Made by a program: the position numbers and the translations under genes. Below are positions 58,440 to 64,000 of a stretch of 64,000 bases of DNA, piece by piece (positions within the stretch are counted from its first letter, which is position 1; each line of letters begins with the position of its first letter). Source of the DNA: Gluconobacter potus (lineage in GTDB: Bacteria > Pseudomonadota > Alphaproteobacteria > Acetobacterales > Acetobacteraceae); contig NZ_JABCQF010000003.1 of assembly GCF_015244705.1 (NCBI RefSeq), forward strand, positions 1 through 64,000, read 5' to 3'. Under the pieces are notes generated by a model, which saw only the letters and a program-made list of their open reading frames with translations, was not told where the DNA came from and did no database searches.

Positions 58440-59810
58440 TTGATGTCAGACGACTCATCGTCTTCTCAGGCTGTAAGACCAGGTGGTGTCCAGCGTGTCA
58501 TGAGCAATCTGGGCGTTCTTCTGGGAGGACGCGCAGTCAATGCCCCGCTGAGCCTCATCCATATCTGGATGGCGACCCACCTGCTGGGGAGCTACAGCTT
58601 CGGACTCGTCGCGATGATGTATGCCTTCGCGCGAACGATGGGCGACATCGTGGATTTCCAGTCCTGGCAGACCGTTCTGCATTATGGCCTGCGTCCCCTG
58701 ACGCAGGGCGACCGTCGGGGTTTCCAGAAAATCGTCTCCTTCAGTCTGCTGCTGGACAGCTTCGGCGGTCTGCTGGGTTTTGGCGGGGGCGTCCTCATCA
58801 GCCTTCTGGCCATGAATCTTCTGGGCTGGCCGCCTGAGATCCACGTCATCGGCGTCGTCTACTGCATCTCCATCCTTTTCATGGCATCCGCCACTGCAAC
58901 GGGCCTTCTGAGGGTTTTCGACCGGTACGACCTGCTGGCCGTACAGGGCACCGTGGCCACCATCGTCCGCGTGATTGGTACGGCTTCGATGGCTCTGGGC
59001 TGGGCGTCGGTAACGGCGCTTGCCAGTGTCTGGATGGCCGCAGAAGTGACGGCCTGGGGTACGATCTTTTTCATGGCGACCCGCGAGATGTATCGCCGGG
59101 ACCTGATCCGTGGCCTCTTCCATGAAATGCGCGGCATCCTGCCCGAGATCCTGAGCGGACAGTTTTTCCGCACCTATCCGGGGATCTGGCGTTTCGCGCT
59201 GAACACGAACCTCAATTCCACGCTCGCCCTCGCCTTCGGCCATATCGGCACCCTCGTGGTCGGCGCCTTCGTCGGCCCGACGAGCGCCGGCTACTACCGG
59301 ATTGCAAGCCAGATCGCGGCCGGGATCGCCAAGCCCGCGACCCTGATCCAGACGACCGTCTATCCCGAAATGGCCCGGCTGTGGCGCGACAGGGCCATGA
59401 ACCGGCTGTATCGCCTGACGGGTCAGATTGCCCTGATGGCTGGCGGAATCGGAACGGCCCTGCTCCTGCTCACGCTGTTCGCCGGACGTCCGCTCCTGCA
59501 GCTCTATATCGGCCACAAGGGGGCGACAGAAGCCCTTCCCGTCACGCTGTGGCTGCTGGCCGCTGAAGTAGTCACCGTCTGGGGCCTGCCGCTGGAGCCG
59601 CTGCTGTTCACGACGAACCGCTCCGGCGCCGCGATCGGTGCCCGTATTCTGGAATGTACCTTCTTCCTCCCGGCCCTGGTAATGATGGTTCGTCATTACG
59701 GGCTGAGCGGCGTCGGGCCGGCGACATTATGTGGCGTCACCCTTCTGATCACGATCCAGCTTGTCTTCGTGATCCGCACGGCCCGCAGTCCGCAGGGGCT
59801 TGCGGCATGA
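58440..59810 (+). CDS. Polysaccharide/lipid flippase (MATE/Wzx-like)
   Basis: 456 residues with about 12 membrane helices, of the polysaccharide biosynthesis (Wzx/MviN-like) family: NLGVLLGGRAVNAPLSLIHIWM at the start and ASQIAAGIAKPATLIQTTVY in the middle. It would move a lipid-linked sugar or lipid across the inner membrane. First gene of a run with overlaps (ATGA into the next), so it is tied to the transferase, acyl-AMP ligase, ACP and serine palmitoyltransferase. A possible role is translocating a sphingolipid or its head-group precursor; this is inference from context. Confidence 0.8.
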   Translation: MMSDDSSSSQAVRPGGVQRVMSNLGVLLGGRAVNAPLSLIHIWMATHLLGSYSFGLVAMMYAFARTMGDIVDFQSWQTVLHYGLRPLTQGDRRGFQKIVSFSLLLDSFGGLLGFGGGVLISLLAMNLLGWPPEIHVIGVVYCISILFMASATATGLLRVFDRYDLLAVQGTVATIVRVIGTASMALGWASVTALASVWMAAEVTAWGTIFFMATREMYRRDLIRGLFHEMRGILPEILSGQFFRTYPGIWRFALNTNLNSTLALAFGHIGTLVVGAFVGPTSAGYYRIASQIAAGIAKPATLIQTTVYPEMARLWRDRAMNRLYRLTGQIALMAGGIGTALLLLTLFAGRPLLQLYIGHKGATEALPVTLWLLAAEVVTVWGLPLEPLLFTTNRSGAAIGARILECTFFLPALVMMVRHYGLSGVGPATLCGVTLLITIQLVFVIRTARSPQGLAA

Positions 59811-60937
59811 AGGTGGCATTCCCTCTCATCGGCCAGCGTCACCAGACCCTGCACGCCCTGCCCATCGCGCTGGAAGTTTCCGCGCGCCATCCGGACGTTG
59901 CGGTCCATGTCTCGTGCCTGACCGTGAGCCATCTCGAACTGGCACGCTCGCTGGCGACGCTCTATCCGGAAGCCCGGGTGCAATTCGATCTGCTCCCGAT
60001 CTCCCCCAAGCTCCGCCGCCGGATCGAACTGCACGGGCTTCGGGTGGTGGATCGTCTGATCGGGCTTTTCGCCTCCAGGCATTATTTCCGGACCTTCGAT
60101 GCGATCATCGTGCCGGAAGCGACGTCCCTGCAGCTCCGCCACATGGGCGTGCGGCGTCCGAAAATGATCTGGACGGGCCATGGCGCCGGTGACCGCGCGA
60201 TCGGCTTTGCCCGGCATCTCGGAAAGTTCGACTTCCTGCTGGTTCCCGGACGCAAGGTGGAGCAGCGCATGCTGGAAAAGGGCATCATCCGCCCCGGCGC
60301 CTATCATCGCGGCACCTACGCCAAGTTTGATCTCGTGCGACGCATGGATGCGAAACGGCCGAAACTCTTCAACAACAACCGGCCGACGATCCTGTATAAT
60401 CCGCATTTCCTGCGCCGCCTGTCCTCATGGCCGGAAATGGGGCATCAGATCCTGCAGTTCTTTGCCACGCAGGATCGCTACAACCTTGTTTTCGCACCGC
60501 ATTTCCGTCTCTTCGACAATCATCGCGAAGAGGGGGAAGCCCTGAGGCGCCAGTATGGGCATCTGTCGCACATGCTGATCGACCCGGGAAGCCACCGGAG
60601 CATCGACATGACCTATACGATGGGGGCAGACCTCTATCTGGGGGATGTCAGCAGCCAGGTGGCCGAGTTCATGATCCGCCCGCGCCCTTGTCTCTTTCTC
60701 AACGCCCACCATGTCAAATGGCATGGAAATCCGGACTACCAGTTCTGGACGCTGGGGCCAGTGACGGAAAATGTATCGGATCTGGGCTCCAAGATAGAGA
60801 ATGCTTTCGAAACGCATCCTCGTTTTCTTGAGGCACAGCGCCAATATGTATTAGAGACATTCGAAACACTGGGCGATGAGCCCACTGCTCCCGCTGCCGC
60901 GGATGCAATTGTCGATTTTCTGAAAAGGGCTGCCTGA
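59807..60937 (+). CDS. CDP-glycerol glycerophosphotransferase-like/glycosyltransferase
   Basis: 376 residues, starting in the ATGA overlap with the flippase. The fold is GT-B-like. The C-terminal half carries YLGDVSSQVAEFMIRPRPCL, matching the 'D.SS...E' nucleotide-binding motif of CDP-glycerol glycerophosphotransferases (TagB/TagF type), and TILYNPHFLRRLSSW and NLVFAPHFRL supply typical loop histidines. It may add glycerol phosphate or a sugar to a lipid. It overlaps the acyl-AMP ligase start by one base. Confidence 0.7.
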   Translation: MKVAFPLIGQRHQTLHALPIALEVSARHPDVAVHVSCLTVSHLELARSLATLYPEARVQFDLLPISPKLRRRIELHGLRVVDRLIGLFASRHYFRTFDAIIVPEATSLQLRHMGVRRPKMIWTGHGAGDRAIGFARHLGKFDFLLVPGRKVEQRMLEKGIIRPGAYHRGTYAKFDLVRRMDAKRPKLFNNNRPTILYNPHFLRRLSSWPEMGHQILQFFATQDRYNLVFAPHFRLFDNHREEGEALRRQYGHLSHMLIDPGSHRSIDMTYTMGADLYLGDVSSQVAEFMIRPRPCLFLNAHHVKWHGNPDYQFWTLGPVTENVSDLGSKIENAFETHPRFLEAQRQYVLETFETLGDEPTAPAAADAIVDFLKRAA

Positions 60938-62748
60938 TGTCAGGTAATCCAAACGGAGCTAGTCCAGGTTTGACCGAGGCCAACCAGAACCCAACCGCCA
61001 ATCCCGTTCCGACGCCAAGCCGTTCCGGCCTGGAAAGACGTTACGGAGATTTCCCCAGCTTTGCGGCCGCCCTTGATTACGCGGCCCAGGGCGAGAGCGG
61101 ATTCAACATCTATTCCGGCCGGGGGCAGCTTCTCGAGGCATTGCCATACCGTCTGCTGCGCGAGCAGGCCCGTTCCATGGCCTGCCGCCTACTGGGTCTT
61201 GGTCTGGTCCCGGGCGATCGCGTCGCGATCGTGGCGGAAAGCGATGGTGACTTCGCCCGGATCTTCTTCGGCTGCCAGTATGCAGGCCTGGTCCCGGCGC
61301 CGCTCCCCCTGCCGGTCGCCTTCGGCGGACGCGAGGGTTATGTGACGACGCTGCGCGGCATGATCCAGAGCGCCGCAGCCCGCGCCGTTGTGGTGCCTGA
61401 CGTGATCGGAAGCTGGACGGCGGATATTGTGGATGGCCTCGACCTGGTCTTCGGCGGCTCGCCCGCTGACTTGTACCGTCACGCCGAAGCCCGTGTCGAA
61501 CTGCCGGAAATTGCCCCGACAGCCCTGTCCTATCTCCAGTTTTCCTCGGGGAGCACACGCTTTCCGATGGGCGTTTCGGTCACGCAGGCGGCCGGCATGG
61601 CCAATGCCCGCGCCATCGCCCACGACGGTCTTCACGTCTACCCGGCCGAAGACCCGCGCGATGACCGCTGCGTCTCCTGGCTGCCGCTCTATCATGACAT
61701 GGGGCTGGTCGGCTTCTTCCTGACGCCCCTGACGTGCCAGCTTTCCGTCGATCTGCTGCCCACCCGCGAATTCGCGCGTCGTCCGCATGTCTGGCTGGAC
61801 CTGATTTCCCGCAACCGCGGCACGATCGCCTACAGCCCGTCCTTCGGGTACGAACTCTGCGCCCGCCGCAGCGGTCAGGCCGATCTGGACCTGTCGTGCT
61901 GGCGCATTGCCGGCATTGGCGGTGACATGATCCGCCATCATATCCTCGAAGGCTTTGCCGAGCGTTTCGCCTCCAACGGCTTCCGGGCCACCTCTTTCGT
62001 CGCGAGTTACGGCATGGCTGAGGCAACACTCGCCATCAGCTTCGCCCCGCTCAACACCGGCATCCAGACCGACACGATCGATCTGCGCCGCTTGGAGAAG
62101 GACGGTATTGCCGAGCCTTCCAACGATCCGTCCCATCCGCTGCGGACCTTTGTCCTGTGCGGCGAGGCCCTTCCCGATCATCAGATCGAAGTCCGCGACG
62201 CCGCAGGACATGATCTGGCGGACCGGCAGGTTGGCACCGTTTACGTGCGTGGACCGAGTCTCATGTGCGGCTATTTCCGCCGTCCCGATGAGACCGAAGC
62301 CGTCCTCGATGCGGATGGCTGGCTGAACACGGGTGATCTTGGCTATCACCTCAATGGCCAGATCGTCGTCACCGGCCGCGCTAAGGACCTGATCATCATC
62401 AACGGCCGCAATATCTGGCCGCAGGATCTGGAATGGTCCGCCGAAAGCGAGATCCCCACCCTGCGGTCGCGTGACGTGGCCGTCTTCTCCGTGGATGGCG
62501 ACGAAGGCGAGAAGATCGTGGCACTCGTCCAGTGCCGCGCGACCGAGGATGAGAGCCGCAACCAGCTCCGCGACGAGGTCACGAGTCTGTTCCGCCGCCA
62601 GCACGGCGTGGATGTCGACGTCATTCTTGTGCCGCCGCGCACGCTTCCCCAGACCTCGTCCGGCAAGCTGACCCGCGCAAAGGCCAAGACCATGCTGCTC
62701 TCCGGTCAGTTCGAACAGCAGCCAGAAACCACGTCTTCGGTCGCCTGA
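60937..62748 (+). CDS. Fatty acyl-AMP ligase
   Basis: 603 residues of the adenylate-forming family. The phosphate-binding loop is LQFSSGSTRFPMGVSVTQ and the A5-type motif SYGMAEATLAISFAPL, both typical of FAALs rather than acyl-CoA ligases; the C-terminal part has INGRNIWPQDLE and TSSGKLTRAKAK. It activates a fatty acid to acyl-AMP and would load it on the ACP encoded after it. The TGATG overlap ties it to the transferase gene. Confidence 0.88.
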   Translation: MSGNPNGASPGLTEANQNPTANPVPTPSRSGLERRYGDFPSFAAALDYAAQGESGFNIYSGRGQLLEALPYRLLREQARSMACRLLGLGLVPGDRVAIVAESDGDFARIFFGCQYAGLVPAPLPLPVAFGGREGYVTTLRGMIQSAAARAVVVPDVIGSWTADIVDGLDLVFGGSPADLYRHAEARVELPEIAPTALSYLQFSSGSTRFPMGVSVTQAAGMANARAIAHDGLHVYPAEDPRDDRCVSWLPLYHDMGLVGFFLTPLTCQLSVDLLPTREFARRPHVWLDLISRNRGTIAYSPSFGYELCARRSGQADLDLSCWRIAGIGGDMIRHHILEGFAERFASNGFRATSFVASYGMAEATLAISFAPLNTGIQTDTIDLRRLEKDGIAEPSNDPSHPLRTFVLCGEALPDHQIEVRDAAGHDLADRQVGTVYVRGPSLMCGYFRRPDETEAVLDADGWLNTGDLGYHLNGQIVVTGRAKDLIIINGRNIWPQDLEWSAESEIPTLRSRDVAVFSVDGDEGEKIVALVQCRATEDESRNQLRDEVTSLFRRQHGVDVDVILVPPRTLPQTSSGKLTRAKAKTMLLSGQFEQQPETTSSVA

Positions 62749-62750
62749 TC

Positions 62751-62815
62751 CCGAACCGGCTCCATCTGCCCTGCTGCCTGAAAAGGCAAAGGGGTGGCGA
62801 AAGGGGCCGGTTTGG
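62751..62815 (+). ncRNA. Two-tier RNA stem between the acyl-AMP ligase and ACP genes
   Basis: The outer stem pairs 62751-62763 (CCGAACCGGCTCC) with 62803-62815 (GGGGCCGGTTTGG): 13 pairs including two G-U. Inside is TGCCT-GAAA-AGGCA (62775-62788), a perfect five-pair hairpin capped by a GNRA tetraloop. There is no T run, so it is not a terminator. It could be a processing or stabilising element that raises ACP and serine palmitoyltransferase levels relative to the upstream genes. Read directly from sequence; function inferred. Confidence 0.5.
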
Positions 62816-62862
62816 AGCATAAGGCTTGCCCAAGATTGCATAGACACCGAGAGTTGAAGTCC

Positions 62863-63117
62863 ATGACTGACAGCGTCGCCGGTATTTCCGGAATGATCAT
62901 TGAGAAACTGCTTGCTAATCCGAAAGTTCCCCGGGACATCGATGGCAACAGCAAGATTGTCGAAGACCTGGCCTTTGACAGCCTGGCCGTCATGAACTTC
63001 GTCATGGAAATCGAAGACGAACTCGACGTCTCCGTCCCGCTCGACAAGCTGGCCGATATCCGCACTATCAACGACCTTGCCGGCTGCCTGCACACGCTGA
63101 AGGTCGCCCACGCGTGA
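62863..63117 (+). CDS. Dedicated acyl carrier protein
   Basis: 84 residues from the ATG at 62863; the frame reaches 62794 but that stretch covers the RNA structure. The 4'-phosphopantetheine site is Ser40 in AFDSLAVMNFVMEIED, with acidic helix II following. Placed between an acyl-AMP ligase and a serine palmitoyltransferase, it probably carries the acyl chain used by the latter, as shown for ACP-dependent bacterial systems. The stop overlaps the next gene's GTG start. Confidence 0.92.
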   Translation: MTDSVAGISGMIIEKLLANPKVPRDIDGNSKIVEDLAFDSLAVMNFVMEIEDELDVSVPLDKLADIRTINDLAGCLHTLKVAHA

Positions 63118-64000
63118 CCGATATTTTCGCCAAGCACCAGGGGCTGCGCGAAGCCTATGAGGGCCTGACCGCAGCGTCGCCCCGGAACCCGTTCGAGGTC
63201 GTAATCGAGCGGCCGATCTCCGCAAGTGTCGGGATTATCGAAGGGCGCGAAACGCTGCTGTTCGGGACCAACAACTATCTTGGTCTCAGCCAGTCGAAGA
63301 AAGCCATCGAAGCAGCCGTGGAAACGGCCGAGACGATGGGCGTCGGCACGACGGGCTCCCGCATTGCGAACGGGACCTTCGGTCTGCACCGCAAGCTGGA
63401 GGCAAAGCTCGCCGAGTTCTTCCGCCGCAAGCACTGCATGGTGTTCTCGACCGGCTATCAGGCCAATCTGGGCACGATCTCAGCTCTGGTGAACAAGGAC
63501 GACGTCCTGCTGCTCGATGCGGACAGCCATGCCAGCATCTATGACGGCGCCAAGCTGTCCGGCGCACAGGTCATCCGCTTCCGCCACAACGATCCGGTCG
63601 ATCTGGAAAAGCGTCTGGCACGCCTGAAGGACCACACGGGTGCCAAGCTCATCATCGCCGAGGGCATCTACTCCATGACGGGCAATGTCGCCCCGCTGGA
63701 CAAGTTCGTCGACATCAAGACGCGCCACGGCGCGTATCTGATGGCTGACGAAGCCCATTCATTCGGTGTTCTGGGTGCGCATGGCCGTGGCGTTGCGGAA
63801 ATGCAGGGCTGCGAGGACGGGATCGACTTCGTGGTCGGGACCTTCTCCAAGTCCCTCGGAACCGTGGGCGGCTACTGCGTCACGAACCATGACGGCGTGG
63901 ACCTGATGCGTCTGTGCTCGCGTCCCTACATGTTCACGGCGTCCCTGCCCCCGGAAATCATCGCAGCCACCATGGCGGCGCTTGAAGACATGCAGGCCCG
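63114..64000 (+). CDS. spt: Serine palmitoyltransferase (alpha-oxoamine synthase), C-terminus beyond the window
   Basis: Partial: 295 residues from the GTG at 63114 (GTGA overlap with the ACP stop). PLP-dependent alpha-oxoamine synthase fold: NNYLGLSQSKKAI near the start, DADSHASIYDGAKLSG, DEAHSFGVLG, and the PLP lysine Lys246 in VVGTFSKSLGTVGG. The GTFSKS motif is that of bacterial serine palmitoyltransferase; AONS and KBL carry GTLGKA-type sequences there. It condenses serine with an acyl thioester to 3-ketodihydrosphingosine, the first step of sphingolipid synthesis. Confidence 0.9.
   Translation, partial: MTDIFAKHQGLREAYEGLTAASPRNPFEVVIERPISASVGIIEGRETLLFGTNNYLGLSQSKKAIEAAVETAETMGVGTTGSRIANGTFGLHRKLEAKLAEFFRRKHCMVFSTGYQANLGTISALVNKDDVLLLDADSHASIYDGAKLSGAQVIRFRHNDPVDLEKRLARLKDHTGAKLIIAEGIYSMTGNVAPLDKFVDIKTRHGAYLMADEAHSFGVLGAHGRGVAEMQGCEDGIDFVVGTFSKSLGTVGGYCVTNHDGVDLMRLCSRPYMFTASLPPEIIAATMAALEDMQA

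Follow-up and report, generated by a model that had tools for sequence, protein, structure and literature searches.

A flippase and a TagF/TarL-like transferase beside the sphingolipid genes of Gluconobacter potus: probably the first half of a phosphosphingolipid locus like that of Caulobacter

The window analysed here is the first 64,000 nucleotides of contig NZ_JABCQF010000003.1 (C3) of the 3.42 Mb genome of Gluconobacter potus. Five genes at its right end encode a flippase, a GT-B transferase, a fatty acyl-AMP ligase, an acyl carrier protein (ACP) and a serine palmitoyltransferase (SPT). On balance these genes probably constitute the first half of a phosphosphingolipid locus that is of Caulobacter type and has the form seen in acetic acid bacteria; in it the GT-B transferase and the flippase would decorate and move a sphingolipid. 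This reading is based on gene anatomy, conservation, gene order and predicted folds. All five genes were found on the + strand, in the order given by the initial annotation:

58443..59810, + strand: PST/MOP-type flippase (Wzx-like), PF01943 at 40.7 bits (cut-off 28.2), ATG start; counterpart of Caulobacter CC_1166 by position
59807..60937, + strand: GT-B transferase with a predicted TagF/TarL-like fold; counterpart of Caulobacter CC_1167 by position
60937..62748, + strand: fatty acyl-AMP ligase / acyl-ACP synthetase AasR (GOX2058 type), NF006624 at 915.8 bits (cut-off 600)
62863..63117, + strand: dedicated acyl carrier protein AcpR (GOX2057 type), PF00550 at 41.8 bits (cut-off 20.8)
63114..64000 and on to contig position 64307, + strand: serine palmitoyltransferase Spt (GOX2056 type), NF047599 at 617.9 bits (cut-off 500)

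Scanned with a 19-residue window, the flippase shows 14 hydrophobic stretches, several of them overlapping, and a TTG codon at 58440 is likewise in frame with its ATG at 58443. For AcpR the likely start is the ATG at 62863, which gives a length like that of its relatives (80–97 residues). The flippase and GT-B genes are joined by an ATGA overlap and the GT-B and ligase genes by a TGATG overlap, as originally described. The overlaps proposed for the remaining genes hold at one junction: the ACP gene (to 63117) and the SPT gene (from 63114) share GTGA, and the ligase and ACP genes are separated by 114 bases to the likely ATG, or by 45 to a GTG at 62794. Short overlaps are thus present at three of the four junctions. 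Bacterial genes commonly overlap by a few bases, and it is the conserved gene order, rather than the overlaps, that speaks for the grouping of the five genes being more than chance. Promoter and terminator scans gave results at chance level. A search for close relatives returned 14 named loci, all from Gluconobacter, with GT-B transferases 81–99% identical to that of the window.

The distribution of the GT-B gene was studied in 150 genomes of Acetobacteraceae. SPT passes its NCBIfam cut-off in 47 of them, and with one fragment (G126) 48 loci were examined. The GT-B profile matches 30 genomes, comprising 29 of the 48 with SPT and one of the 102 others (Fisher p 3.7e-17, uncorrected for kinship, which inflates such values). 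The co-conservation that the initial annotation proposed as a check holds for GT-B, which tracks SPT genomes; the flippase follows more loosely, and the pair is missing from nine loci. Excluding a 240-base fragment in G060, 42 GT-B copies were collected, 27 of which lie within 15 kb of an spt, cerK or cpgC-like gene. GT-B stands directly before aasR in 20 of the 48 loci (as a partial gene in three). The flippase directly precedes it in 11 of these 20, is not seen in six, and cannot be judged in three. In G121 and G138 the flippase/GT-B pair is found at the opposite end of the locus, after ntp. Five further loci have readable sequence that stops inside aasR (in one case at the contig end), and the remainder have other arrangements.

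The nine loci without the pair belong to genomes of 1.9–2.2 Mb; the alr–aasR spacing is 294–678 bases, flippase and GT-B are both missing, and aasR-acpR-spt are kept. In eight of them spt is immediately followed by the cpgC-like gene and cerK; G066, the ninth, carries these two genes about 21 kb away. G066 and G070 carry a distant GT-B copy elsewhere. Since nine loci lack the pair and keep aasR-acpR-spt, flippase and GT-B behave as an optional cassette that adds to the pathway and is not required for it. The proposal that the five genes form one pathway is well supported in its link to sphingolipids, more so for GT-B than for the flippase, and overstated as to unity.

Several side observations concern these gene sets. 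Six draft assemblies (L054, L070, L073, L074, L076, L077) break 439–663 bases before GT-B, as if at a repeat in the same place. The only GT-B genome outside the SPT set, G056, has a locus with cerK, cpgC-like, lptFG, ntp, GT-B and flippase genes (L143:8060-11845, L202). Its synthase is 34% identical to SPT, below the SPT cut-off, and this divergent enzyme may use an amino acid other than serine. In two genomes of the window's genus (G054, G131; L080, L081) the operon from flippase to spt is present, and the 9 kb that follow spt showed none of the cerK/cpgC-like/lptFG block. Two small genomes (G116, G029; L093, L094) keep cerK, cpgC-like, hydroxylase and ntp genes, and no phosphoesterase or lptF2/G2 is found at the locus. 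An apparent fusion of GT-B and flippase in two relatives was rejected: the frames of about 1,780 residues are unread stretches counted as X.

Among 385 sampled Alphaproteobacteria, Acetobacteraceae included, the GT-B gene was found in 12 genomes (three of them Acetobacteraceae) and the cpgC-like gene in 42, with both in ten; a sample of 398 genomes across the phylum gave 11 GT-B matches, ten of them in Alphaproteobacteria. Two genomes of family f51 (L137, L138) have the order flippase, GT-B, aasR, cerR, acpR, spt. Elsewhere in the 385-genome sample, outside Acetobacteraceae and f51, GT-B copies are found at a distance from the spt locus. In family f13 a single strand of locus L243 carries flippase, GT-B, cpgA, cerK, cpgC-like and ntp, and at another locus, L236, GT-B overlaps cpgA. 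When distance matrices are compared, GT-B and flippase show a correlation of 0.94 for 17 pairs and of 0.96 for the 13 pairs with SPT (partial correlation 0.91 given spt; permutation p 0.0001). In a first tree the window GT-B falls into a group of 23 rows (support 98/98), 21 of which are located at an spt locus.

The closest characterized counterpart is the ceramide phosphoglycerate locus of Caulobacter crescentus, like G. oxydans a laboratory organism. Its published order is CC_1168 (LptC2), CC_1167, CC_1166 (potential flippase), CC_1165 (aasR) and so on to CC_1152 (cpgD) (PMC11324152; PMC12275187). We compared the window with a Caulobacter-type locus in genome G845 (L239/L244), which has the order lptC (PF06835), GT-B, flippase, aasR, cerR, acpR, spt; next, in the opposite orientation, come cpgC-like, cerK and cpgA, and after them phosphoesterase, lptF, lptG, cerS, ntp and cpgD. 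Six of eight published C. crescentus cpgD primers fit this genome with 0–2 mismatches, including those at the start (one mismatch) and the stop (two). In this locus GT-B alone lies between lptC and the flippase, so CC_1167, which has that place in the published order, should be the same transferase, and we regard the identity as likely. The Caulobacter-type and window proteins share 138 of 355 aligned residues, and 16 of 17 examined invariant residues are kept; the two flippases are 37% identical. CC_1167 was called probably unrelated, yet its reported cofitness is 0.57 with spt and 0.54 with CC_1159 (PMC11324152). Among the literature matches listed for CC_1167, that paper is the one about this locus. 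The comparison suggests that the pair decorates and moves sphingolipids, probably in Caulobacter as well. The condition named by the initial annotation as refuting its view, that these genes are conserved with capsule loci, is not borne out: neighbours, tree and gene order place GT-B, and less tightly the flippase, with the sphingolipid genes, and the Caulobacter cofitness data tie the gene in the GT-B position to spt.

The predicted structure of the GT-B transferase has TagF and TarL as its nearest solved folds over its whole length, at 13–14% identity in the VIA rows, so the modelled protein appears to have a TagF/TarL-type GT-B fold. The best eight VIA rows comprise five TagF entries, two entries of a capsule multienzyme (one with cytidine monophosphate) and one of TarL; the N-terminal part of the multienzyme is presumably a CDP-ribitol transferase. 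The window protein has matches in a single Pfam family, PF04464. That family is matched at E up to 1 by 14 of 17 aligned GT-B sequences (best 1.4e-7) and passes its cut-off in two of nine proteins scanned (L063, 31.2 bits; L184, 24.0 bits). PDB sequence searches with GT-B gave no relevant match. The D-x-S-S motif noted initially is confirmed, with D280, S282 and S283 unchanged in all 17 aligned sequences. Histidines H12, H16, H125, H200 and H232 likewise do not vary across the aligned family, and the Caulobacter-type protein retains them; for TagF, the titles of structure entries name variants of the catalytic histidines H444 and H548.

Downstream of the window the locus continues as follows (contig C3):

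64348-65286, - strand: cpgC-like gene, 312 residues, without a Pfam match
65279-66238, - strand: cerK (lipid kinase)
66366-67286, + strand: metallophosphoesterase
67256-68437, + strand: lptF2 (LptF/LptG-type permease)
68401-69543, + strand: lptG2 (LptF/LptG-type permease)
69540-70355, + strand: fatty acid hydroxylase
70352-71107, + strand: nucleotidyltransferase, MobA-like (ntp)
71104-72174, + strand: GT4 glycosyltransferase
72196-73086, - strand: GINT1_N protein (PF24793; L003:14196-15086)

The initial annotation proposed to look beyond position 64,000 for ceramide synthase and reductases. Neither is in the locus, which contains instead the cpgC-like gene, cerK, phosphoesterase, lptF2/G2 and nucleotidyltransferase. 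The aasR, acpR and spt genes of the rhodobacterial ceramide set stand together. An unlinked CerS is encoded at C4:41619-42716 (39% identity, E 2.2e-69). The best CerR match is weak (C3:299553-300146, 32%, E 5.8e-11) and belongs to a broad dehydrogenase family; in G. oxydans GOX1849 was assigned as CerR (PMC9386255). Homologues of CerK/CpgB and CpgC lie side by side at 64348-66238, the kinase being 33.6% and the cpgC-like protein 40.8% identical to those of L239. No match to cpgA, a CDP-alcohol phosphotransferase, was found anywhere in the genome, and no cpgD in its stretches L003, L004, L184 and L201, to which that search was limited.

Of the 150 genomes, 25 match the cpgA profile at E up to 1e-5. 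Four exceed 400 bits (G121, G138, G063, G102); the remaining 21 score below 40 bits and align along part of its length. Among the 48 loci, cpgD-like genes of 46–52% identity occur in G102, G063, G138 and G121, and of 30–32% in L049, L050, L051 and L057. Strong cpgA and cpgD homologues are therefore observed in the same four of 48 genomes (L059, L072, L056, L061), and this sequence pattern suggests that they travel as one step. GT-B is not a plain replacement of CpgA, a possibility that was rejected on finding both in G121, G138, L137, L138, L239 and L243.

The GINT1_N family is named after a plant glucosamine inositolphosphorylceramide transferase, and here its member lies inside a bacterial ceramide locus. 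Such proteins are encoded in 33 of 48 SPT genomes and 12 of 102 others, and in some relatives (L196, L193, L202) the genes lie between GT-B copies.

The cpgC-like protein is predicted to have a Tam41 fold. It is 13% identical to Tam41; no relevant Pfam family was found in 14 members at E up to 10, and a search of PDB sequences with their profile gave one nucleotidyltransferase at E 0.14. With no sequence-family match, the protein is filed as one that may work like Tam41 and not as a Tam41 member. Tam41 is a mitochondrial and bacterial CDP-diacylglycerol synthase acting on phosphatidic acid, whereas the substrate of the cpgC-like protein would be ceramide-1-phosphate. Among the matches listed no paper treats CpgC together with Tam41, and the literature search returned none joining CDP-ceramide with bacteria; a 2026 paper still draws CpgC with its mechanism unidentified (PMC13228409).

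By the published chemistry of these families, AasR would load a fatty acid on AcpR and Spt would make the sphingoid base. The unlinked CerS and a reductase (the former found, the latter weakly) would complete the ceramide, which CerK, as a homologue of CpgB, could phosphorylate. The cpgC-like protein may then convert ceramide-1-phosphate and cytidine triphosphate to CDP-ceramide. On the cytoplasmic face GT-B would extend the ceramide-phosphate head group by a phospho-polyol or phospho-acid unit, taken from a nucleotide-activated donor that the neighbouring nucleotidyltransferase may supply. The Wzx-like flippase would turn the product across the inner membrane, and LptF2/LptG2 could pass it outward. 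We suggest that the GT-B/flippase step is separate from the CpgD-CpgA step that leads to ceramide diphosphoglycerate, because GT-B occurs with CpgA in some genomes and without it in others. The step would also be optional, given that acetic acid bacteria keep the pair without CpgA and that some relatives drop the pair and keep CerK and the cpgC-like gene. A more speculative version, which we hold only tentatively, is a teichoic-acid-like sphingolipid of the outer leaflet: CDP-ceramide would be made by a Tam41-fold CpgC, at least one phospho-polyol or phosphoglycerate unit added by TagF-fold kin of CC_1167, and the product moved by a Wzx-type flippase and exported by LptC2/F2/G2, the whole replacing CpgD/CpgA in acetic acid bacteria.

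The best-surviving alternative, possible though doubtful, is that GT-B is a nucleotide-sugar glycosyltransferase which, with GT4, builds a glycosylated (phospho)ceramide, the flippase being a Wzx-type carrier of that glycolipid. A GT4 gene accompanies GT-B in 12 of 16 loci, against 0 of 8 (hand count), and this association makes a mixed head group of sugar and phosphate possible. The eight best VIA rows, all TagF, TarL or the capsule multienzyme, and the PF04464 matches in 14 of 17 sequences speak against a sugar transferase. So do L236 and L243, where GT-B stands beside cpgA, or beside cpgA, cerK, cpgC-like and ntp, and no GT4 was matched.

The glycerol-phosphate head group proposed in the initial annotation, with CDP-glycerol as GT-B donor and ceramide phosphoglycerol as product, is improbable, although TagF/TarL are the nearest folds and PF04464 the only Pfam family matched. 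A TagD-type glycerol-3-phosphate cytidylyltransferase (TIGR01518) passes its cut-off in none of 32 GT-B genomes, in a search limited to this route to CDP-glycerol, and in 2 of 14 control genomes, which makes such a donor unlikely. In 31 of the 32, one weak match is seen in a frame of 481–746 residues, likely another nucleotidyltransferase. The CDP-glycerate pair of Caulobacter is missing as well, cpgA genome-wide and cpgD in the searched stretches.

Least likely of all, and very improbable, is that GT-B and the flippase serve an undecaprenyl-linked surface glycan and adjoin spt by chance or shared regulation. It draws on a second, divergently placed flippase/GT-B pair in the same genome without sphingolipid neighbours (L184:8353-11026, or C1:157353-160026; GT-B 37% identical) and on the copies beside GT4 genes in G070 and G066; it is opposed by the clustering of most spt-linked copies, by an adjacency that recurs in at least four arrangements, by the cofitness of the Caulobacter gene with spt (PMC11324152), and by the flanks of the second pair, a DegP-type protease and a serine dehydratase, with no capsule genes seen. 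A capsule locus was rejected for the spt-linked copies, whose neighbours and tree do not fit it. In a second tree (36 rows) a 23-row group (95/94) holds the second copies of G845 and of the window's genome, and the spt-locus GT-Bs of both fall outside it.

Several results weigh against our preferred reading, that the pair decorates and moves a sphingolipid. The window GT-B misses the PF04464 cut-off (16.9 against 22.1 bits), and the Caulobacter-type L239 protein has no match to that family. In the fold comparison TagF is only 1.9 Z units ahead of epimerases, TarL is tied with them, and a common fold, itself a model, would reveal no donor. The likely identity of CC_1167 comes from gene order and primers and not from the CC_1167 sequence itself, and two of the eight cpgD primers have no fit within four mismatches. 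The L243 GT-B is a long branch of unsure place. On their contigs 15 of the 42 GT-B copies are off the sphingolipid locus, two of them (G070, G066) adjoining GT4 genes. Six of 17 loci readable before an spt-linked GT-B show no flippase in 439–663 bases; the same test recovered nine of nine positive loci, six of which had their own flippase among the queries. That the flippase always stands beside GT-B was consequently rejected, these six loci having enough sequence and no flippase. Conversely, G063 and G102 have a flippase at spt and no GT-B match.

Compared with known systems, the Gluconobacter locus resembles CC_1168-CC_1152 of C. crescentus (PMC11324152; PMC12275187), seen through L239/L244, in having flippase and GT-B beside aasR, acpR and spt, and cpgC and cerK on the other strand followed by phosphoesterase, lptF2, lptG2 and ntp. 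It differs in lacking cpgA (genome-wide) and cpgD (in the searched stretches), in having no cerR or cerS in the locus, in the presence of hydroxylase, GT4 and GINT1_N genes, and in the position of the flippase, which precedes GT-B in Gluconobacter and follows it in Caulobacter. GT-B resembles TagF/TarL, the wall teichoic acid polymerases of PF04464, in overall fold; unlike them it is below the family cut-off, shares 13–14% identity and has no TagD-type gene over cut-off in its genome. The aasR-acpR-spt genes are those of G. oxydans 621H GOX2058-2056 in the same order (PMC9386255); the word flippase does not occur in the main text of that paper. In 2024 the authors of PMC11087976 stated that they had found no flippase or transporter for bacterial sphingolipids yet, and CC_1166 and Lpt-like genes were named as untested candidates (PMC11324152). 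In Caulobacter the second phosphoglycerate requires both CpgA and CpgD (PMC12275187). New in the present comparison are the likely identity of CC_1167, the predicted Tam41 fold of the cpgC-like protein, and the finding that the variant in acetic acid bacteria lacks CpgA and, at its locus, CpgD. CC_1166 gains support as a flippase candidate from the comparison, which also puts forward a chemistry for CpgC and a role for CC_1167. The missing steps matter for understanding how an outer leaflet free of lipopolysaccharide can be built, since Caulobacter without lipopolysaccharide depends in part on a lipid of this sort for its viability (PMC12275187).

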